Assembly (NCBI GenBank): GCA_004369085.1
Contig: ML210261.1
Span: forward strand, 2,804 to 33,583
DNA from: Coprinopsis marcescibilis
Lineage: Eukaryota > Basidiomycota > Agaricomycetes > Agaricales > Psathyrellaceae
DNA: 30,780 nucleotides
Direction of reading: 5' to 3'
The notes beneath the pieces are model-generated. The model did no database searches. It saw only the letters and a program-made list of their open reading frames with translations, and had not been told where the DNA came from. Positions 12,873-29,986 of this stretch are shown piece by piece. Position 1 is the first letter of the stretch. The number at the start of each line of letters is the position of its first letter. The position numbers were made by a program, and so were the translations under genes.

Positions 12873-13108
12873 GGAGACTTGAGGAAATTGATTTGAAGCA
12901 AAGGAAAGAAGAAAAGAAGTGTGGGAAAAGAGTTGCATAAATGTCGGTGGTCCGGATCGGGGATGATATGTCAGAAACGGCGCAGGACCCAATGAAGGTT
13001 CCCCTTTTCCCACCACGCCTGCTGATTCAATCCCCCATCTGTCCGAAATAAAGACCTTGCAACACATCTTCTCCATTACCGGTTTGTTTCTCGTGTCTCC
13101 TCAATACT
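12873..13108. promoter_or_regulatory. Divergent promoter region between the cysteine-rich candidate and the Zn2Cys6 factor
   Basis: A gap of 236 bp separates the start of the tentative minus-strand gene from the ATG of the plus-strand transcription factor. A pyrimidine-rich stretch (12990-13080 on the plus strand, 12890-12930 on the minus strand) is typical of fungal promoters. If the cysteine-rich gene is real the two share this promoter; otherwise it serves the factor alone. No specific binding site could be named. Confidence 0.4.
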
Positions 13109-16100
13109 ATGCCCCCTGAACCGACGAAATCGAAGGTGAAAAGACGCACAAGCAGGAAGGACCTGGACGATTTTCGTTTTGATGGGACGCATGCCCGAGA
13201 ATTGGAACTGAAGCGAACCAGAGGTGCGATATTCGCAAGATATTCCCTCCACATACCTTTTCTGACATCTTTTCCGCTCTTTTCTCGCAACTGGGGAACC
13301 TTTAGGAGAGGTAACTGCCCATCCCTTTGTGTTAACGATCAAAATTTGACCGATAGCCAGGTCAGTTGTGCCGAGTGCCGCAGGTATGCGATCATCGCAC
13401 ATTTGGAAGAGGATATGCTCATGTTTTGTCACAGATTGAAGATCAAGTGCGACAAGCAGGTTCCTTGCCAATCCTGCGTTGTGAGTACCCTTTCCCGACT
13501 GTTCTTTCAAGTCGTTAACCGGATATGTTGCGTTCTGCAGCGTCGAGGATGTGTGGCACTTTGTCCCAATGGTGCGTGTACTCTCATATCATTGCCTTCT
13601 TATCACTGACCGATTGTCCAATATAACAGGGAGCTTATCGACTGGTCAAGGCACGCGGTACGCTGACGACATCATTCACTGGGTTTCGACTGACAGTTCA
13701 ATAGCTTCGTGCTGGCAGCGACCGAGCACCTACACAAACGTATCGGCAACTTGGGTGGGCGTGTTCGACAACTCGAAGATGCACTTGCAACCCTACAAGC
13801 GAGCCACTCCACGGAACCCCATCCGCTCCTACACGACGATCTAATTACTATCGACGAACCTGAACCTGAAGCAGAAATGACGACCGGTGAAGCTGCAGGA
13901 GGGCAGGCTGGAGATGTGATCGATGCGTTTGGAACCCTTTCGATCTCAGAGCATGGTGTCTCACGTTTCTTTGGTCCAACTGGAGGTTCAGAGGTGCGTC
14001 GTCATGTCCATCCCACCAGGACGTTTGACTGACGTTCTCCACAGAGTCTTTTGGCGGTAGGCCGGCCTAGTTCTTCAAGCTGACAACAATTGCTCAGGTT
14101 ATACTTTAGGCTGGTTCCGATTCGGCTCCCCATGACTCGCCAGAACTGTCAGCTCGCACACCAGAGTCCACCCGGGACTCCAAAAGCCCGATGAGCATTG
14201 GGGATGTGACCCTATTTTCCCAATACTTCCCATTTACACCACTTGGACAACCGCCTCAAGTTCAGGAGCTCATCGAAACACATCATCTACCCCCCTACGA
14301 TAAGGCTTTGGAATACTGCGATGTGTACTTCGAGCAAGTGTCTTGGTTGTTTCGAGGTGTTACGAAGGAGCAGGTTCTCGACATGATCCCCGTCGTATAC
14401 AAGCGACAGTCCCCGAGCCCAGGAGAAGAGTATACTGGCCCGCACGACCTGGCTCTCCTCTTTGGGATATTTTCCATTGCCTCTCTCGTTGGCCACGATC
14501 CATCCGTTCCACACAGCGACCATTATTATCAAGTCGCCCGCGCTGCGCTCTCCCTACAACCTGTTTTGGAGAAACCTTCGACTGTCACCATTCAAACGAT
14601 GCACCTGCTCAGCATCTACAATGCCATGAGCGGCAGCGATCTAAAGAGCGATGCGAGCATGGAAACCACTTGGTCACTCATCACCTTGGCGTCGCATCTA
14701 TCACTGACGGTACGTCACTCACAACCTTTCCCTGTCAATATTCCGCTGATTCAGGCCTTCATTTAGATTGGACTACGTGAGCGTACATTTTCAAGGGTTT
14801 TGACTTTCATCCTGACCCTTGGAACCAGATCGAGACAGTGCAAGATGGGGCCTATCGCCGAAGATGGTTCAACGGCGCCGAATATTATTTTGGGATTTGT
14901 TCGTCGCTGACGTATGGCAGGTAAGTGGTCACCTTCTCTTCAAGTATGCAGGTATTCCCGACTGAGAAGCCTTGTGGTTAGAGCTTGAATACAGGAAGAC
15001 CTCCAGCATTCTCCCTCCCCTATATCGATTGCGGTCTCCCACAGTACGAAGATGTCGCAACGAATCTTGAGAAAGGATGTAAGTTCTTGGCCTTGCTTTA
15101 ACTCTATCCAACTACTGATTCAAAGATCATCAGTCGAGATATGGCAATTCAGATTCGCTGCTGAAGTTGTTGCGGAAGTCTCAGCTCGAACCTTGACGGC
15201 GGAAACTCCGAGCTACGCCACAATCATGGATTTGGATCGCAAAGTTCGCGAATTTCCCATTCCAGAAAGTATGATGTCGAAACCAGGCGACGACTTCTCC
15301 ACCGCATTCCAGCTCTGTGTGCTCGACCACATCCGCGAAACAGGTGAGTTCTTCGTTTCCTGTTATCGACGTCGTTCTCGGATTTTTTACTTCACCAATT
15401 TGCCTATCGAAGTTTGAATTCTAATCCTTTCCTTAGTTCTTTTATACATCCATCGAAGCTTCTTTGCTCAAGCTATCATCGACCATCCGAAGAATCCGCT
15501 GAAAAGCCCCTATGCTCCTTCGTTTTTGGCCGCGTATCGCGCATCCTCTACCATCCTGAAGTCTGTACAAGAACATTTTACTCTTTGGCCTCAGTCAAGC
15601 TCTCGTTTCTGGACGATGTGGACGTTCGCCTTCAGTGCCTCAGTGAGTGGTATATTTATGACAGCCTGCTTGCCCAGGAGTCCATTGATCGGTCATGCAG
15701 GTCGTGTTCGGCACTGTTGTAACGCGAGGGCCTCGGAGTCCACTGGCCAAATCGGCCATGCGAGAGCTGGAGCAAGCTTGCATTCTATTCTCAAAGGCTT
15801 CTGTGTACAGTATGCGAGCTACGAAGGCATTGGTCAGTCATTCAACTTCTTCATCATTGAGGTTTCCGTCAGAATCTCAACAAGTCCTGAAAATGGAATT
15901 AGCCTATCCTCAAGAAGCTTAGCGAAAAGGCTCGCTACGCTCTGTCGGCTGCACAGAGCGACCCATCTGGAGATAACGGTCTCCATTGGACCATCAAGCA
16001 GGAAGACACTGAGGACGAGCTGGCGATTTTCGCGGGTCACACTCGATTCGTCAACGCTAAGCGCAACCCAGATCCCAACGGAGCTGGCCCCGACCGTGCT

Positions 16101-16871
16101 GGCGGATCACCGCCAAACCAGATACCTGGAACTGAGCTCCCTCTCTCCGTCTCAACGGCACCTTCCATTCGACAACCACAGCCGGTTTTATCACATCGCT
16201 TCGACCCTTCTTCGAGCAATGATTCCAGGATGGATACCTCAGAAACCAACTGGTCTGACAACTCCGCCGCTCATCATATCCCAATGCAACCAGGGGAGAC
16301 GCACTATGATTATCCTCACTCGGCCCACGAGCGGCCAATGGACTATAATTGGATGCACTCTCACCAGGACATCCCACCCGTTAGGTTCCATCACGCCTCG
16401 CATCCTCCAGAGCCCAGATTATCTCGTCCCGTCCAGAGCAACAATCCTATTCATATCTCTCCCGCTGATCACAGTCAAGTATACTACAGCTCTCGAGATG
16501 AAGGTGTTAACGTACGGTCACCTTCCCCATTCTACCCTCCACACAATCAAACCTATCCCTCGACTTACGGTCATCGCATGTCCACCAGCGCCGATCCACC
16601 GCCAGTAGCATCCTCTTCCTCGGCCGGCCCGCGATACCTCGGACGTCAACCTTCGCAGTCCTACCCACATCCTCACTCACCGACGACACCTTATACGTCT
16701 ACATTTTCATCATATCCAGCTGCCGCGACGTTCACGTCCCAATCCGCACTACCCAATCCTGCCCTCGCAGACCTTGGAATCGCCTCAAGGGATTCAAGAT
16801 TGGACGAGAAGTGGAGCATGTTTATGGCAGATTCAGGTATTCTAGAGGAGTTCAACTACCGCCCTTCTTAG
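13109..16871 (+). CDS. Zn2Cys6 fungal-specific transcription factor
   Basis: Sixteen exons join in phase to 954 residues: 13109-13223, 13306-13310, 13361-13383, 13435-13480, 13541-13571, 13630-13657, 13705-13993, 14045-14056, 14110-14709, 14767-14776, 14829-14920, 14982-15078, 15134-15343, 15437-15642, 15701-15832, 15903-16871. The DNA-binding cluster has Cys at 43, 46, 53, 59, 62 and 71 (C-x2-C-x6-C-x5-C-x2-C-x8-C) inside CAECRRLKIKCDKQVPCQSC. It is followed by CPNGSLSTGQGTRF and a coiled-coil dimer helix (about 84-116). The fungal factor middle domain follows, with the hallmark HRDSARWGLSP...RRRILFWDLFVAD...TGRPPAFSLP. The tail is rich in Ser, Pro, His and Tyr, as in activation regions. The family binds CGG-containing DNA sites; target genes are unknown. 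The 5-nt second exon is needed to join RG to the first Cys in frame. Confidence 0.93.
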
Positions 16872-17136: not shown

Positions 17137-20100
17137 ATGCCCGCGACGAGACTCCGCCCCATAGACATGCATGACAATGACATGCATAGCATCAAAAAGC
17201 TCCGACGAAGTGAGGCAATATGTCACTCCAAGATTTCACCTCGACTAATCACAATTGGACGCCCTGGGATCTGGATCTCTTCCTCAACTCTTACAGGAAC
17301 CATGACGGTCTGTCCCAGAGGCTCGACGAGCGGCAACATCACGAAGATCATTAAGATTCTTGGGGAGTCACCCTCACCCAGTCGGCTGACCGCAGAAAAC
17401 ATTGAAGCCTGGCTGACTTCAAACGCAGCGCAACTCGACGCAGCGACGCAGCTCCTTCCTCCAGAGCATCGACCGTTCGCCTTAACGCTATCATCGCAGA
17501 CATTTGCCGTATGTCTGTACCCAATCAGTCTATTGATATTGAATTTAACTTTCCCCTCGCCAATTTCACGGTTACCGCCCACTGAAGCGATCTCTTCTAC
17601 TATGCCTGGCCGCCCTGTTGGATGCGAACGCTGACGATTGGTGCGTATTCAATATCTCGACCGCGGTCTCTTCTGATCACAACAGCAGTCACTTTAAGCA
17701 CCTAAATGACCTACAAGCACGTATATCCAGCGCTAGCGCGTCTCGGCAACTTTCCCGATATCGATCAGTTTTGGAAGACTTGGTTCGCTTGATAGGTTCT
17801 CTGCCGGTTAGTTTGGAAAATCTACACACTTTATACTTTCGCTGAAACATCACAGGATCTTGACCCTTCTCTACAATCTACAGCTCAAGAGGCAATCAAA
17901 ATCGATCTTCAGTTTATGGCGGCTTGGTTCCTTGACAATCATCCTTCCCTTGACAGCGTGACCACGTTTATTGGGACTTATCTGCAGGACGAAAGACAGG
18001 AGCTGGTGAACTTTTTCCAAACTGTATGGTATCTTTCTTATTAGTACTTATATCTTTGCTGACAAAACGACTCTAGCTACTCGACTTGACAGAGTTGAAA
18101 GGCCTTCACGCGCTTTTGCTGGAAACTCAACTAATGTTAGCTAAATTAACTGGGTTGGTGCCTAGAGGTCTCGTCTACGACGGAGATGTTGAATTTGAGC
18201 GGGACTGCACCTTTGTCCACGGGCAATATGGAAGTATATGGAGAGGTACGATCGAAGGGCAGGTCGTAACTATTAAGCCCGTTCGAAGGCCAATCAACAG
18301 GCCCCCGCAACTAATAAAGGTGCGTTAGACGTCCAAGCACACCTTGCTATGGTTATTATCTAACCTGTTCGCAACTCCAGAGTTATGCTCGAGAGGCCAT
18401 TCTCTGGGGCCGGTTGGATCACCCCAACATAGCTCCGTTCTACGGAATGTACCTGCTAGGCACTGGAGAACGGCGTCTTCTCAGCGTCATAACTCCATGG
18501 ATGTCGAACGGAAACGTATTGGACTATCTTTCCCGACATCCAGTCGCCGACCGAACGAAGCTGGTGCGTTCGAATTTTTTAGTTTTCACGTTACAGCCTA
18601 ATAGAATCTACGGCAGATCCTCGATGTCTGCCACGGGCTGAACTACCTTCATGCTTTCAATCCACCAGTTATTCACGGTAACTTGAAGAGCGTATGTCAC
18701 CTCGTTAAAACTGTAGCTCTCGATCTCATCTACCTTAGACAAACGTGCTAATCACCCCAAGAGGGCGTGCATGTTTGACGGACATTGGTTTTCATATGCC
18801 TAAACCGAAATTCGATTATAGACCCACCGCCTTCTGTTGGCGCTTCTCAGCTCCGGAAATACTATTTGCAGCCTACCCCAAACCTTCAACATCGTCGGAT
18901 GTCTATGCCCTTGGCTCGGTTTGCTACGAGGTACGTTGGCTGCCCTTCTCCGCAACGATGATTGCCCACTCCCTACTCAGATCTTCTCCCCACATCCGAG
19001 ATTCTCCTCATTATCTAACCCCTCCCAATTACTCGACTCCATTCGAGATAATAAGCCGTGCTTGAAGCCCGACCGAATGGACTTGAACCTTTGGGAGATG
19101 GTCCAACGTTGCTGGGATCCATTTCCACAGAAGAGGCCATCCATGGGAGCCTTCCTCCGGCATGTTAGTATGCAAATCGCCACAGTTCCCCGTATTCCTA
19201 ACGGGATGGAGGGGTGGGACGCTCGTCTCAATCCACGGTTTCTCGAACCTCCTTCATTCTCGATAAAACGTAAGACGCGACACCTGATAAGAAAAAACTT
19301 CCCCGAGTACCTTACTGACACTTTCCCGCAGGACCGTCGAACCTGCTATGGTTATCGCGTACTCTCCAAGTTGTTGAAGACGTCCCGCGCGCGCCTGAAG
19401 TAACCCAATTTTCTGAATGGCTGGCTGCAGATGCCGGCTATCTAGACTCTGTCATATGTTTTTTCCCCCGTGAACATCGCGAATTTGCGTCAGACCTGAC
19501 CAAGGCGTTATTCCCAGTGAGTGCGGACGGGACATCTTCAACCGCTGATGGTCCTAATCATGTCTTTAATACCATCAGCGACTCCACTTGTTTTGTCTCG
19601 CATCGATTCTGGCTAAGCCATCTTGCGAAAACGCAGGGTAACCTTGCATTTTTCTTCTCTAATTTCATTAATCTTGGCTAAAGCACCTTCTCAAGCTTAA
19701 CCGAGCTTTTCTCTCTCCACGCCCAGTGGTCCGGGAGTAGTCCTGTGGATATCCTTCCGCTTCACGGCTCGCTCAAAGAAGATCTCTTGCGTATTATTAA
19801 GTCTAACCCTTTGGTTAGTTTCTTTAAAACCATAGTTTTAACGTGAACTGACTCGTCGAATCTCAGGTAGTGGGCATATCCCTCACAGAATCTGTTCAAG
19901 GTGTTACTGATACAGATGTACGCCACTTGGGCATCTGTGTAATTCACGTCCTTGTGTCCGACAATGCACGACGAGGGCTTCTCGAAGCCAACGACTCCGA
20001 CATCGGAACACGAGAACAAAATGTTGTAGACCTACTTCATTCCGTGAGCCTCCATATTTCATCATTGTAATAGAACATCCGAATAACTTCTGCATAGATC

Positions 20101-22511
20101 CTTGACATCGATGACCTGCAGGATCACCAGCCCAGGTTGTTGCGCTCACTTCTCAAACTCTCCCATCGGACTGGACTTTTCCCAAAGTCGCTGGTGTACA
20201 CTGACGTGACTGTTGAAGGGACAGATTTTGTTGCCGGGGGAAGTTTCGGTGATGTTTGGAGGGGAACACTTCGAAACAGGCCCATTGCTGTGAAGACTAT
20301 TAGGTCTATCAAAGATGGCAAGAAGATGATTCAGGCGAGTTCCGCCGAGTCACTCATCTTCCAAAATCTGACTCGTAGTCATTTTCTTAAGGCATTTAGT
20401 CGGGAGGCAGTGATGTGGAGCAGACTTAACCATCCTAACGTACTTCCCTTCCTCGGTGTTTACTTTTGGCGGCCAAATCCCAGCTCAGATCTCGAACGCG
20501 TGTCGCTGTTGTCGCCATGGATGGAGAGAGGGAACGTACTCGAGTTTCTCGAAAGGTATCCCTCCGCAGATAAAACCTCGCTTGTTCGTCTCACTCTGCG
20601 TACATTATCCTCCTGATCATGGCTCACTTCATTCCAGCTACTTGATATAGCCAATGGCCTGCATCATTTGCACAGTCTTAACCCACCTGTCGTTCATGGC
20701 GACTTAAAAGGGGTAATGACTTTCCCTTTGTATCTTAACATGCAACTTATTCTCTGATGTTAACTAGAACAACATCCTTGTAACTTCTGCTGGTACGGCA
20801 TGCTTGGCCGACTTCGGACTATCGAAACTTGTGGTGGACTCGGCAGGTCAAAACTCTCCAGTGTCGCATTCATGTCTAGGCGGGAACGAGCTCTTTTGCG
20901 CCCCGGAGATCCTCGGGGAGTCTAGTGCTCTTCAGGTTGAACCGACCGCCTCGAGTGATGTCTATAGCTTCGGATGCGTGGGTTACCAGGTACGATCTCC
21001 TTCACTCTTAAGACTTCCGAGCAGACATCCCGACGCTCATCTCCTAAAATCCTCCTGTATCGAACAGATATTCACAGGGAGACCACGATTTGCGCACATA
21101 ACTGCCATTTGGCCACGTCTCCACGCCGCAAAGAAGAACCGACCTATTCCACAACCGACCAATATGCCTTCAATGTTGTGGAAGTTCACTCAAGAGTGCT
21201 GGGCCCCCGGGTCGGGTTCCAGACCTTGTACTGCGGACCTCATAACATCCATCGTGCGAGTGATAAACCAGTCAGGTAAGCTTTTGCATGAGTGCAAAAT
21301 CATATGAAGCTGACGGGTCTGTGTAGTCTTGTCCGAAACCGTCGAGTCCTTGAATCGACCCAAGGTTTCAAAGGAGGAAAAGTTCCGCATCATAGAGAAC
21401 ACGATGAGGGCACTGGCGAGACATGATGCGTCCAACGTAGACACCATCCCACTCACTTCAGTTCGGGAAGCGTTGGCCGAGATTTTGGCGGATGATCCGC
21501 GAAAGGCTCTTGTCCGTAAATTCCTGAAGGAGTACACGGACAGTAAGTTGGTCCTATTTATGCTATGGATCAATTGGTTTACTCACATCCGCTATTTCAG
21601 TGTGCCTTCTCGAGCTGACCGGGCATTCGGGGATGGTCTCATCAGTTTCAATATCTAACGATGGGCAACTCATCGTCTCTGGGTCAATGGACCTCACAAT
21701 TCGTAGGTGGGACGCGTCCACTGGCAAGCAAATTGGCGAGGCCCTACGCGGTCATACCGGAGCAATCCTCTCCGTCGCGCTATCTCCAGACGGCAGGAGA
21801 ATCATCTCAGCATCGAGCGACAGCACCATTCGAATTTGGAGTACCATAACTGGGGAAGAAGTGGTTCCGTCAATAACTGGGCACGATGGCCCTGTTCGTG
21901 CCGTTTCGATGAGCAGGGACGGGTCCCGAATTGTCTCTGCGTGCAGCGATCATACCATTGGGGTATGGGATGCTGACACGGGAAAACCGCTAATTCCCCT
22001 TCTAAAAGGTCACGAAAGGAATGTGCTTTCGGTCGCCGTGTCGCATTGCGGAACTCGAATAGTCTCTGGGTCGTCAGACAGGACCATTAGGATATGGGAT
22101 GGCCTTACAGGGATTCAAGTCGCGCCACCACTAAAAGGGCACAAAAACTGGGTACAGTGCGTCGCGCTTTCTCCAGACGCCTCAACAATCGTCTCTGGCT
22201 CGAGCGACAACACCATTCGTCTATGGGACGCCAGGACAGGAGAGCCCATCCGCAGTCCATGGAAAGGGCATACAGATTTTGTTAAATCCGTTGCATTCAC
22301 GGCCAATGGTGAACACGTCCTGTCTGCTTCATCCGACAATTCCGTCAGGATATGGGCCGTGTCTGAAGGTGAAGAGATTTCGGCTCCCCTTCGAGGGCAC
22401 ACAGATCGTATATGGTCAGCAGCAATCTCGGAGGACGGAAGGCGGATTGTTTCTGGTTCTTTTGATGAGAGCATTCGATTATGGGATGCTGAGTTGGCAT
22501 TTGCAAGATGA
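17137..22511 (+). CDS. Tandem pseudokinase-kinase protein with C-terminal WD40 propeller
   Basis: Nineteen exons join in phase to about 1450 residues: 17137-17508, 17588-17806, 17856-18023, 18077-18319, 18381-18563, 18617-18691, 18739-18930, 18981-19269, 19332-19516, 19579-19637, 19684-19813, 19867-20043, 20098-20334, 20392-20583, 20638-20712, 20768-20989, 21068-21275, 21327-21542, 21601-22511. Order: helical modules (about 75-285), kinase-like domain 1 (about 285-565), helical module (about 580-800), kinase 2 (about 800-1075), helical linker, and seven 43-residue WD40 blades to the end. Kinase 1 keeps the ATP-site Lys (TIK, 320), helix-C Glu (339) and DIG (435) but has HGN (415-417) where the catalytic HGD belongs. 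Kinase 2 has GGSFGDVW, AVK (830), Glu 848, HGDLKG (927-932) and DFG (947). Both fit the tyrosine-kinase-like group. Intron sites match between halves. The intron at 20335-20391 starts with GC. The N-terminus before residue 70 is uncertain. Role as a sensor kinase is inferred. Confidence 0.85.
21610..22499 (+). repeat. Seven WD40 repeats of 43 codons (129-nt unit)
   Basis: The last exon of the tandem kinase gene codes for seven consecutive blades, each opening with a G-H dipeptide (GHSG, GHTG, GHDG, GHER, GHKN, GHTD, GHTD) and closing with x-x-W plus D, S or A. Spacing between successive GH pairs is 43 residues. Blade sequences are much alike (IVSGSSD-x-TIR recurs), as in WD40 repeats that undergo exchange between copies. 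Seven blades make one closed propeller, which would serve as a binding platform. The final blade ends only a few residues before the stop. Confidence 0.92.
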
Positions 22512-27124: not shown

Positions 27125-29986
27125 CTAAAAACCGTCATCATCTTCCTCTCCCTCAACAAGATCCCACTCATCCTCACCACTCCTCCTCCCAGTTCCCTTG
27201 CCCGCATTCGCATTTAGGTTCGCAGTCGAATTCCAGGGCCCGGCTCCGCCACTCCCCACTTCCACAAACTCCTCCTCAACACCCTCCCCAAACCCAAAAT
27301 CTCCCTTATCCCCCCTAAAACTACTAACCCCCTTCCGCCCACTGACAACCCTCACACCTTTCGCCCTCTCCCGATGTGCACTGCTAATCACCTGGAGAAC
27401 CTGCCCGAAATCCATCACAAACGATGCAGGAGTGGGCGGAGCAAGATGCGTCAAATAATGCACATTCGCATTCGCATTCGTACTCGGGTTCGCACCGGGT
27501 TTGGAACTCGAACTCGGAGGGTGCACAACGAGATTAGACGGCGGTGACGCGGTGGACGACGTGGAGGGAGCCCTTTCCATAGCCGATGGCGAAGGTCCCG
27601 AAATCCCTACACCCGTCGTACCAGTCGGGGACACCACTCCCGCTCCACCAATAGAATACGCATACGCACTGGTCTCATGCGCCCACCTCCCCATCTCCCC
27701 CGCACAGCACACCCTCCACAAATTGCTCAAAATTTCCCCTCCCTGATTAAGCGGGATATCCACACCCTGCGTGTGTCCCAAATAGGCCACATTGTAGATC
27801 AACATCGCCAGGCCAGTCGTGAAGCTCGGCTGGCTCGAGCTCGTCTTGGAATGGGAGCCCGCATTCGAGTTTCCAGTCGAGGAAGTTGAGGAGCGATGGA
27901 TGCTCCCAGAGGCCTTGCTAGGCCGCCCTGTTCCATACATCACAGAACCCGCACCAGAGGCAGATGCGCTCTTTATCACCGGCACCGCCCTCTCGTTCCT
28001 CCCCGCAGTCAACCCGGCAGCAGCAGGCAAAGGCATCGCAGCCAAAATAGACTCCGCCAACGCCCTCTCGGCTCTCTCCTCACGCTCCTCCTCCTCCTCC
28101 AACGCCCTCTTCCGGGCCTTCTCCAACTCTTCCTCCTCTTCATCAAATCCCATCTCATCTCCTCCCAAAGGAGATTCATCATAAACATCCAAAGGCCTCC
28201 TCGCCCCCACCGCCACATCCACCCCCAAAGGCGTAGATTTCAATTCCGGATTACTCAAAGGCGTCGATCGTCCCGATAGATTGGACAGAGCCGACATCGT
28301 CCTCGAACGTCCTCCCCCAGTCGCATACCCAACCACACCCGCTGCTAACGCAGTGGCAGACCCAAAGATACTCGTCCTCCTTGTCGGCGTGGGGGTCGAG
28401 CTCCGGCTGCTGCTCCCGCTCCCGCTTGCAGTCGTACTGGATGTTTGCGGTGGGGCGGATTCCTGCCTGGTTTTCAAAGGTGAAGGAACAGGATCATTAT
28501 GAGACGGTATACGTCGATGGCCACTATCAGCATGCGATACCGTGGTTGTCGATTGTTGGTCCGCGTTGGAACTAGGTGACAGTGGTGCAACTGGTGGCAC
28601 GGGTACCGCATTCGATGAGTTGCTCAGATGCAGTGGATGTTTGGTATACCATCTACAATGAATTTTGAGTTTTGAGATATCGAGATGAAAGAAAACGAAA
28701 CGAACCTCGCCCAAGAACCAGCCCCATTCTCAGCGATCGGCCCACCCTTGATCGCACCAATCCAAGGCTGACCCAGCCCAACCTTGCCCCCAGTCCATAC
28801 AATCTCAAACGGTAGTTTCACCCCGAGATAAAACGAAAGGAGGTTGATGAAATGCAGCGTAAGCGTCAGGACGGCGTTGATATGGTCTGGCGGGTAACCT
28901 AAAAGAAATGTCGTCAATACCAGGGTCAACGAAAAGAGAGAAGACGGGGAAGCAAAACGCATGGAAAGAACCGCAGCAGCGTGGCGATGAAAAGGGTTAA
29001 AGAAAAATAAGAAACAGACGCAACTCACGTCTAATATCACCAGGCACAGGGAAAACCAACCCAGGCCCAATCGTCCACTCTCCCCTCGTACCCTTGCGTC
29101 CACCGATTGGCGGCCGCCCTCCGACTTCCACAATGTTGAAAACTTCCACCAGTTCTTGCACCAGGCCAGAGCGGGCTCTTATAAGGGTATGCGACAGCGA
29201 CGACATCGCAGGGGAGGGCGGGATCGGGGTGGCAGTCAAAGTTGAATGCGAGTACGGATTCCCAAACGGAGTGTTTTGATAGACAAAGGGCGCAGTCGAG
29301 TTTGCAGATGAAGGGTCTGTAGGTATTGGGAATGAGGGGTTGTAGTTTGGTGTGCTTAAGAATGGGCCGGCAGTAACAGGTGTACCAGCTAGTGTGCCTG
29401 CGGCGTACGCAAGGATGGGCGACGTCAGTGCGGCGAGTGTACTAGGAAAGCTAGAGATGTCGGGCGAATTCATTGCTGTGGCTGTAGGTGTCGACGCTGA
29501 CGAGCTGGAAGTCGAAGACGAGGCAGAGGGTGGTCGGACCGCCATTCTGGCTGCTCCGAGCGTTCTACGGCGTTGTGCGAGGTCTTCACGTAGTTTCCGA
29601 ATTCTATCGCGTTCTACAAGGCTGAGAGTCAGTTCAAGTGAGATGGAAAGAGGGCGATGATTTCGTACTTCGCTCGATGTCTTTCCTCGCAGTTGCCAAT
29701 CCAGCCACAAGTTCTTCGACGCGAAACTGGATCTCTGCGACTCGCCCTCTGGCAAGTCTCGCTGGCTCCACTACATTGTTCAAAGAAGCTGTGGCATTCG
29801 CGACGATGCTCTTCAAATCGGAGCTAAGATGCGTGTGTTGGGAGTGAAAGTCTCGCAAACTGTGGGACAAAGGATATGGATCAGTCGAGCGTAAGTGGTG
29901 GGGATCCAAGTAAAGACGCACTGGGTCTTTATACAGGTTCTACAATAGAGCTGACGCTGTCGAACTTCACAATTTCGACACTCCAT
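27125..29986 (-). CDS. ATG14: Atg14/Vps38-type subunit of the Vps34 phosphatidylinositol 3-kinase complex
   Basis: Five exons (29986-29922, 29859-29669, 29613-29029, 28898-28706, 28652-27125) join in phase to 853 residues. The N-terminus has the paired cysteines of the family (C3, C6, C15, C18 in MECRNC...YCRTC), then a coiled coil to about residue 105. The core block has PGLVFPVPGDIRRYPPDHIN and LSFYLGVKLPFEIVW (about 265-330), then GQPWIGA and YTKHPLHL. A later block at about 620-670 (NVAYLGHTQGVDIPL...LSNLWRVCC) completes the domain. These are hallmarks of the Atg14/UVRAG family, which joins Vps34, Vps15 and Vps30/Atg6 to make PI3P on autophagic or endosomal membranes. About 270 Ser/Thr/Gly-rich and Glu/Arg-rich residues separate the two conserved blocks, making it longer than typical yeast Atg14. 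Atg14 versus the related Vps38/UVRAG cannot be settled by eye, so the symbol is provisional. Confidence 0.85.

Follow-up and report, generated by a model that had tools for sequence, protein, structure and literature searches.

The stretch of DNA analyzed here, which we call the window, comprises 30,780 nucleotides of the Coprinopsis marcescibilis genome (36.3 Mb, 448 contigs) and corresponds to positions 2804-33583 of contig C116. The analysis focused on a plus-strand gene of this window whose predicted protein contains two kinase units, each composed of a helical module and a kinase domain (H1 with kinase 1, K1; H2 with kinase 2, K2), followed by a linker (L3) and a WD40 region. The elements of the gene, with the evidence on which each was placed, are as follows.

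17137..22511, plus strand: whole gene, 20 exons, 1,431 residues, a single spliced reading frame
17317..18196, plus strand: helical module H1, residues 61-278, all-alpha, 11 helices (unit alignment, AlphaFold2)
18197..19181, plus strand: kinase 1, residues 279-536, pseudokinase, HGN at 18674-18682, DIG at 18781 (Pfam, residues)
19182..19269, plus strand: C-terminal tail of unit 1, up to a phase-1 intron (intron comparison, tail alignment)
19270..19331, plus strand: intron 9, phase 1, 62 bases, junction of units 1 and 2 (gene model; spliced in protein P0122)
19332..20208, plus strand: helical module H2, residues 566-782, no methionine (alignment of units 1 and 2)
19638..19695, plus strand: intron 11, end possibly at 19683 (gene model; P0122 terminates within it)
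20209..21256, plus strand: kinase 2, residues 783-1050, checked residues complete, HGD at 20695-20703, DFG at 20810 (Pfam, residues)
20335..20391, plus strand: intron 14, GC-AG, 57 bases, open if kept (gene model, P0001-guided alignment)
21276..21326, plus strand: intron 18, phase 1, 51 bases, junction of kinase 2 and L3 (gene model)
21327..21542, plus strand: exon 19, linker L3 (homology to the pre-WD40 segment of Tle1-like-WD40 genes)
21543..21600, plus strand: intron 19, phase 1, junction of L3 and WD40 (gene model, relatives)
21601..22511, plus strand: exon 20, seven-repeat WD40, residues 1129-1431 plus stop, whose first strand could close the propeller (Pfam, blades, AlphaFold2)

Gene model and continuity of the reading frame

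The exons between 17137 and 22511 splice in one frame with zero internal stops, and all 19 introns have plausible ends, 18 of them being GT-AG and one GC-AG (intron 14). A sequence-only reading of this DNA had claimed that the exons join in phase without an internal stop, and the rebuilt 20-exon frame bears this out; the one-protein layout proposed there also stands, whereas its counts of 19 exons and about 1450 residues do not. The model was compared with two public C. marcescibilis proteins, using a purpose-written aligner for the spliced alignments. The first, P0001, matches contig C154 over 1310 of its 1310 residues, and when its kinase unit (from residue 826) was aligned to the window, the inner boundaries of exons 10-18 were reproduced, the GC-AG intron included. 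The sole difference concerns the start of exon 12, placed at 19684 rather than 19696, which leaves four residues uncertain. Keeping intron 14 would add 19 residues inside kinase 2, and a longer form is possible.

The second protein, P0122, matches the window locus over 591 of 591 residues (exons 1-11). Its model starts at the inner methionine at 17302, which together with 17137 makes two candidate start codons, is shorter by one residue at exon 3, and crosses the junction between unit 1 and H2, splicing out intron 9. Judging from the methionine gap around this junction, the short linking introns and this crossing, one protein is a much likelier reading than the three neighbouring genes against which the sequence-only reading had weighed it, and the window very probably contains one gene with the full layout. 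The joined transcript itself is deduced from the frame. Separate genes are unlikely because no methionine occurs from residue 546 to residue 821 and the linking introns measure 51-62 bases; given this gap, unit 2 would be without its own start codon ahead of its kinase.

Two observations speak against a single gene. P0122, after passing the junction, reads into intron 11 (GGG TAA) and ends in the middle of H2. Moreover, neither a public protein spanning K2 and WD40 of the window locus nor another species with the full layout was found among the best 120 of 235 matches (787-2504 residues), the best 120 of 1,659 (270-859 residues) and the best 120 of 7,855 matches to an L3-WD40 query; each search scored about 8,000 candidates. 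The corresponding alternative is that two or three adjacent genes (unit 1; unit 2; L3-WD40) join in frame by chance. The early end of P0122 would fit it, as would the fact that the single-unit protein P0001 stops at the C-terminus corresponding to that of K2, and the fact that retention of intron 18 brings the frame to a stop at 21305-21307; a shorter form terminating after kinase 2 is possible on this reading of the frame. However, P0122 stops mid-module and not at the junction, H2 offers no methionine as a start, introns 9 and 18 leave scant space for a promoter, and L3 is without a methionine before residue 1083. We therefore regard a chance joining as improbable.

Two homologous kinase units and a WD40 propeller

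The profile search suggested in the sequence-only reading recovered two kinase domains and the WD40 region: the kinase family PF07714 was matched in both halves (E=1.4e-30 and 1.6e-35) and WD40 with E=2e-70 in 7 stretches, the whole-protein scan giving the best 25 of 53 families. Scanned separately, unit 1 (residues 1-565) matched kinase families only and unit 2 (residues 566-1056) kinase or kinase-like families only. K1 is degenerate, with HGN in place of HxD (Asn for the catalytic Asp) and DIG in place of DFG, and it retains the beta-3 Lys, the alpha-C Glu, the Asp of DxG and the Glu of APE; K2 retains every checked residue. The stretch from DxG to APE is 20 residues long in K1 versus 27 in K2. 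The glycine of the HGN motif is ordinary, since HGD stands in all eight remaining rows of that alignment of units. The two units are homologous over the helical module and the kinase, with 160 of 485 residues identical (33%, E=5e-84), and share eight matching introns. The domains named in the sequence-only reading, a degenerate kinase followed by an intact one, are thus the ones present, and what it overlooked is their position within two homologous units of helical module plus kinase.

An AlphaFold2 model of P0122 (50 sequences) reached a mean predicted local distance difference test score (pLDDT) of 83.6, with helical module 1 modelled as 11 helices mostly above 90. The kinase part of this model matched solved kinases in both Foldseek and VIA-align, whose rows cover chiefly residues 209-484, that is, the kinase. 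The best solved structure matching K1 was plant CTR1. The top Foldseek match was MLKL at a root-mean-square deviation of 16.2, and the other 49 matches listed were kinases. The helical module was not placed by Foldseek or VIA-align, and a sequence search of the PDB gave one weak match for it (E=0.33).

Exon 20 alone, modelled by AlphaFold2 from a single sequence, gave a confident all-beta structure (best of five: mean pLDDT 94.0, predicted template modelling score 0.90; the other four: pLDDT 92.9, 88.7, 87.1 and 64.9). With its seven repeats, from which the blade count is taken, exon 20 reads as a seven-bladed propeller, in agreement with the sequence-only reading. Pairs of blades are 26-56% identical, with a mean of 44%. 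That reading had also missed that the L3-WD40 end recurs in Tle1-like-hydrolase-WD40 genes elsewhere in this genome. A profile built from the L3 segments of eight Tle1-WD40 relatives gave the window L3 a score of 29.5 bits; the highest value from 500 shuffles was 7.7, and 360 other collected proteins yielded no convincing L3 (best 5.9 bits). Ten L3-WD40 relatives were identified in the genome, on C154, C15 (four), C159 (two), C257, C54 and C19. Matches to PF09994, the Tle1-like hydrolase family, which we take to have been formerly named DUF2235, lie upstream of nine of the ten, and none is listed for the copy at C15:157035. None of the 44 PF09994 matches in the genome is on C116, so that no hydrolase head was found for the window gene. 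A phase-1 intron stands just before the propeller in all ten relatives. Its position is identical in nine of them and shifted by one residue in C19; these introns were placed with the window protein as guide, and several of the alignments are unreliable upstream of this pre-propeller intron. Four of the relatives (L041-L044) form a local expansion at C15:128777-176554, within about 48 kb, three of them with upstream Tle1-like matches.

In order to evaluate constraint, four module comparisons with relatives were examined by codon position. Third positions differ most (61.8-74.4%, versus 25.1-50.5% at positions 1 and 2). When the observed differences were placed at random, means of 10.6, 10.6, 17.1 and 16.5 stops per module were obtained, and none is observed, with the proviso that picking splice sites creates a bias toward open frames in every module but WD40, which is a single exon. 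The codon pattern shows constraint on the modules, which would have acted mostly before the fusion. As the matches listed include no full-layout public protein, the claim of selection is limited to the modules and does not extend to the assembled whole. That same lack of a full-layout relative, and the fast evolution of K1, would suit a recent fusion or a decaying fragment without function, in which L3-WD40 is a remnant of a Tle1-WD40 gene. The open frames and the third-position divergence stand against decay, with the caveat that the differences mostly predate the fusion, and so do the plausible ends of all 19 introns and the well-modelled propeller of exon 20 (pLDDT 94). We consider decay very improbable, the least credible of the alternatives weighed here.

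Origin of the parts

The kinase tree, built from 63 domains, joins K2 to P0001 of C154 (support 100/100) and places K1 within the same nine-row Coprinopsis clade (100/97). A recent tandem duplication of one unit is not favoured, given that K2 groups with P0001 and not with K1. In the WD40 tree, the window propeller pairs with a C154 propeller (88/85). On C154 the P0001 kinase gene and a Tle1-L3-WD40 gene lie on the same strand, P0001 ending at 33910 and the first PF09994 match starting at 38665; no clear gene was seen by eye in the scanned part between them, where some of the sequence reads N. H-kinase genes, as we call those encoding the helical module plus kinase unit, and Tle1 genes share a contig on C154 and C201, two of four other contigs (Poisson P of about 0.007, with 16 loci counted by eye), a co-location that is suggestive only.

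The three module junctions (tail 1 with H2, K2 with L3, and L3 with WD40) carry the only phase-1 introns of the gene, the other 16 being phase 0 or 2, and a random placement of three phase-1 introns hits exactly these junctions in 1 of 969 draws. Similar introns are found in relatives. In P0001 a phase-1 intron likewise precedes the helical module, and the exon lengths agree (185); P0121 has a kinase tail (WDNRVNPR) that ends at a phase-1 intron before the GTPase; and the L3 exons of seven of eight Tle1 genes, read by eye, begin at a likely phase-1 acceptor, that of C19 being unclear. The intron pattern at the junctions can be read as exon shuffling. The gene is probably a mosaic in which unit 2, from a single H-kinase gene, and L3-WD40, from a Tle1-like-hydrolase-WD40 gene, were joined at phase-1 introns. 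A C154-like gene pair would have lost the hydrolase head, the single H-kinase gene gaining the L3-WD40 exons, and unit 1 would have been supplied by another H-kinase gene, perhaps a GTPase-bearing one.

Several observations weaken this mosaic origin. K1 is drawn at the base of the Coprinopsis clade with weak support (96/65), and its branch (0.96, versus 0.27 for K2) fits a loss of function too. The branches on which the window and C154 propellers pair are long, and none of the forks has strong support. Phase 1 is also seen at five of the first six P0001 introns, which makes the phase signal weaker than 1 in 969, and the intron between L3 and WD40 is inherited from the Tle1-WD40 family, which weakens it further. 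Finally, the resemblance of the unit 1 tail to the tails of H-kinase-GTPase proteins comes from a short alignment without statistics. These limits of the propeller pairing and of the tail comparison have reduced our confidence in the origin. Two near-identical H-kinase-GTPase genes (L017 and L018) were also observed on C201, where about 7 kb lie between them and their strands are opposite. One of them is matched by P0121 over 846 of 846 residues and the other over 800 of 826, although the contig given for P0121 has 54513 bases and C201 has 49433; Tle1-like matches are present on C201 as well. If the mosaic origin is correct, the gene suggests a route of assembly in which phase-1 exon modules are joined from gene types that still adjoin each other, and this origin is testable in Coprinopsis populations.

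Relatives, known systems and a possible mode of action

The H-kinase family of Agaricomycetes (P0121, P0123 and P0001, partly named TKL or TKL-ccin) has the same helical module plus kinase unit, and the introns match those of the window units in both members checked, P0121 and P0001. Its proteins carry one unit with a GTPase or other partners, and none is listed with two units and WD40. The catalytic Asp of the family is present in unit 2 and replaced by Asn in unit 1, which is thus a relative by descent and not an active member. With the Tle1-like hydrolase-WD40 genes, the window gene has the L3-WD40 half and its phase-1 intron in common, the hydrolase head being replaced by two kinase units. 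The kinase-WD40 proteins P0015 and P0039 (Pleurotus) and P0150 (Marasmius) were considered as relatives and not taken as the same layout; P0150 has a kinase and a partial helical-module match (22 bits), and its WD40 is, by reading only, unlike the L3-WD40 type.

The loss of the catalytic Asp was compared with other kinases. Of 200 single-kinase proteins compared irrespective of organism (domain longer than 200 residues, drawn from 240 proteins), 199 have the Asp, the exception being P0122, the window's own unit 1; at the Lys position the same proteins have 188 Lys, 8 gaps and 4 other residues. Eleven proteins from named fungi contain two or three long kinase segments (P0002, P0003, P0006, P0008, P0009, P0124, P0127, P0129, P0137, P0141 and P0151). 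Not counted are fungal proteins whose segments are short, partial or split (P0143, P0158, P0161, P0164, P0182, P0194 and P0212), non-fungal or viral ones (such as P0012, P0018 and P0019) and those of unnamed organisms (such as P0021, P0155, P0184 and P0201). A first domain without the Asp is combined with an intact last domain in five of the eleven: Piloderma croceum P0003, Tricholoma furcatifolium P0127, Mycena galopus P0151, and P0008 and P0009, both from Polyrhizophydium stewartii, presumably a chytrid. The second domain is degenerate in P0137 and P0141; P0002, P0006 and P0129 have the Asp in every segment; and P0124 has it in both, with an altered DFG in the second.

In the kinase tree, strong local support separates the first domains of P0003 and P0127 from window K1; the first domain of P0151 also lies elsewhere, on a long branch whose place is unsure. 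From the tree, degenerate-first kinase pairs have probably arisen more than once, and the loss of the Asp in the first domains of the Piloderma, Tricholoma and Mycena tandems suggests a trend. These three share the degenerate first and intact second kinase with the window protein but, unlike it, have no WD40 among their Pfam matches. Degenerate or broken first domains were further noted in P0151 and P0182 (Mycena) and in P0008/P0009 (Polyrhizophydium), and the precomputed Pfam list of P0008 includes what we take to be leucine-rich repeat families.

The sequence-only reading had invoked the logic of JAK and GCN2 and knew of no described system with this exact layout. On the latter point, no paper among the matches listed from the open-licence PMC literature describes a pseudokinase-kinase-WD40 layout, names such a pseudokinase-kinase protein in fungi, or joins DUF2235, WD40 and fungi. 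The full layout is new; the tandem pseudokinase-kinase fusion as a kind was known already. As regards JAKs, their pseudokinase JH2 precedes the kinase JH1 and holds or shapes it. JH2 is reported to have its catalytic Asp replaced by Asn and its activation loop short (PMC4718504), so that the pseudokinase-first likeness stands down to these details. Membership does not: the likeness is one of residues only, FERM and SH2 were not matched in the scans of the window units, and the window kinases have fungal relatives and are followed by a terminal WD40. GCN2 carries RWD and HisRS-like domains, neither of which was matched in the scans of residues 1-565 and 566-1056.

By analogy, the wheat tandem-kinase fusions are a closer functional parallel than JAK or GCN2. 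The resistance protein WTK6-vWA (Lr9) is described, in the part of the report seen, as having tandem kinases, one perhaps inactive, and a C-terminal protein-interaction domain, and its authors propose a decoy role (PMC10260399). Its suspected pseudokinase is kinase 2 and its kinases are of plant type, whereas in the window protein it is kinase 1, a helical module stands before each kinase and the extra domain is WD40. The 92 original members of the plant tandem kinase-pseudokinase proteins (TKP) are said, in the excerpt used, to have no additional conserved domain (PMC6170490), unlike the window protein with its WD40. The clade that holds both window kinases is from a tree without plant rows; matches to plant proteins score far below fungal ones, although among solved structures it is plant CTR1 that matches K1 best.

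Fungal NLRs of the NACHT-WD40 (HNWD) type share with the window protein a modular head with WD40, and the sections used of two sources list a protein kinase among their N-terminal domains (PMC4986451, PMC10197012). Reportedly, 21.6% of their WD-repeats are more than 85% identical, which is not a defining trait; the window protein has seven repeats with the lower blade identities given above. No NACHT or NB-ARC was matched in the scans of the window units, and none of 82 NACHT matches listed in the genome (86 of 181 candidates scored) is on C116; NB-ARC was not searched genome-wide. Multi-repeat WD40 proteins dominated the search with the L3-WD40 part, and for many of them the Pfam list includes NACHT. 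A reading as an NLR is not favoured, there being no NACHT in the unit scans or on C116 and the blades not being near-identical.

Taken together, our overall reading is that of a mosaic H1-pseudokinase-tail, H2-kinase and L3-WD40 gene in which K2 would be gated by K1, to which we assign a probability of roughly 0.55. The allosteric action of K1 on K2, proposed by analogy, is more tentative when taken by itself, at somewhat less than even odds. K1, having lost the catalytic Asp, would act allosterically on K2, holding or shaping it in the manner of JH2 with JH1, and the helical modules would position both kinases. The propeller would bind a ligand or a partner, or be an integrated bait, and this binding would free K2, leading to phosphorylation of downstream proteins. 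The contact between K1 and K2, the activity of K2 and the role of the propeller as a sensor are what we infer. If the joined protein is made, it would represent a fungal case of the pseudokinase-before-kinase layout of animal JAKs combined with the extra domain of the wheat fusions.

K1 could instead be a bait or scaffold and not a regulator of K2, with foreign or partner proteins binding to K1 or to the propeller and K2 signalling, as in WTK6-vWA. The decoy role proposed for the wheat protein and the faster evolution of K1 relative to K2 are consistent with this. However, K1 keeps the Lys, the Glu, the Asp of DxG and APE, which suggests a retained nucleotide pocket and a folded switch over a free surface, and we consider the bait reading unlikely.

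A link to immunity or non-self recognition, raised in the sequence-only reading, is kept as a lead, because the wheat tandem kinases are similar and fungal NLRs likewise combine a head with WD40. A serious competitor is a signalling kinase of an ordinary, lineage-specific sort, acting in development or nutrition with WD40 merely as a docking platform, that falls a little short of an even chance. It overlaps our explanation in mechanism and differs from it in biological role. Fusions of the H-kinase module with AIG1/septin-like GTPases would suit such a kinase. A further point in its favour comes from a study of Laccaria bicolor that we take to be Kosti et al. 2010. Many TKL kinases, expanded in this mushroom, are reported in the text seen, and the words WD40 and pseudokinase have no occurrence in the main text (PMC2838846).

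It is a rather doubtful proposal, somewhat less credible still than the bait reading, that mushroom-forming fungi independently evolved non-NLR tandem pseudokinase-kinase receptors with swappable sensors, paralleling the wheat fusions and having a WD40 sensor in common with Tle1-like executioners. If it were true, one type of sensor could drive either a kinase or a lipid-attacking head. The L3-WD40 end, which the kinase head and the Tle1-like hydrolase head have in common, gives a starting point for identifying the target of the propeller.

Two neighbouring regions of the window were also noted. On the plus strand, 13052-16868 has a match to the Zn(2)-Cys(6) cluster (PF00172), after which come long open stretches that no Pfam family matches, and is perhaps one regulator gene directly upstream of the kinase gene. 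On the minus strand, two open stretches in 27128-29770 match the Atg14/Vps38 family PF10186 (E=5.3e-11, and 3.8e-6, the latter below the cut-off), and perhaps form one autophagy gene.

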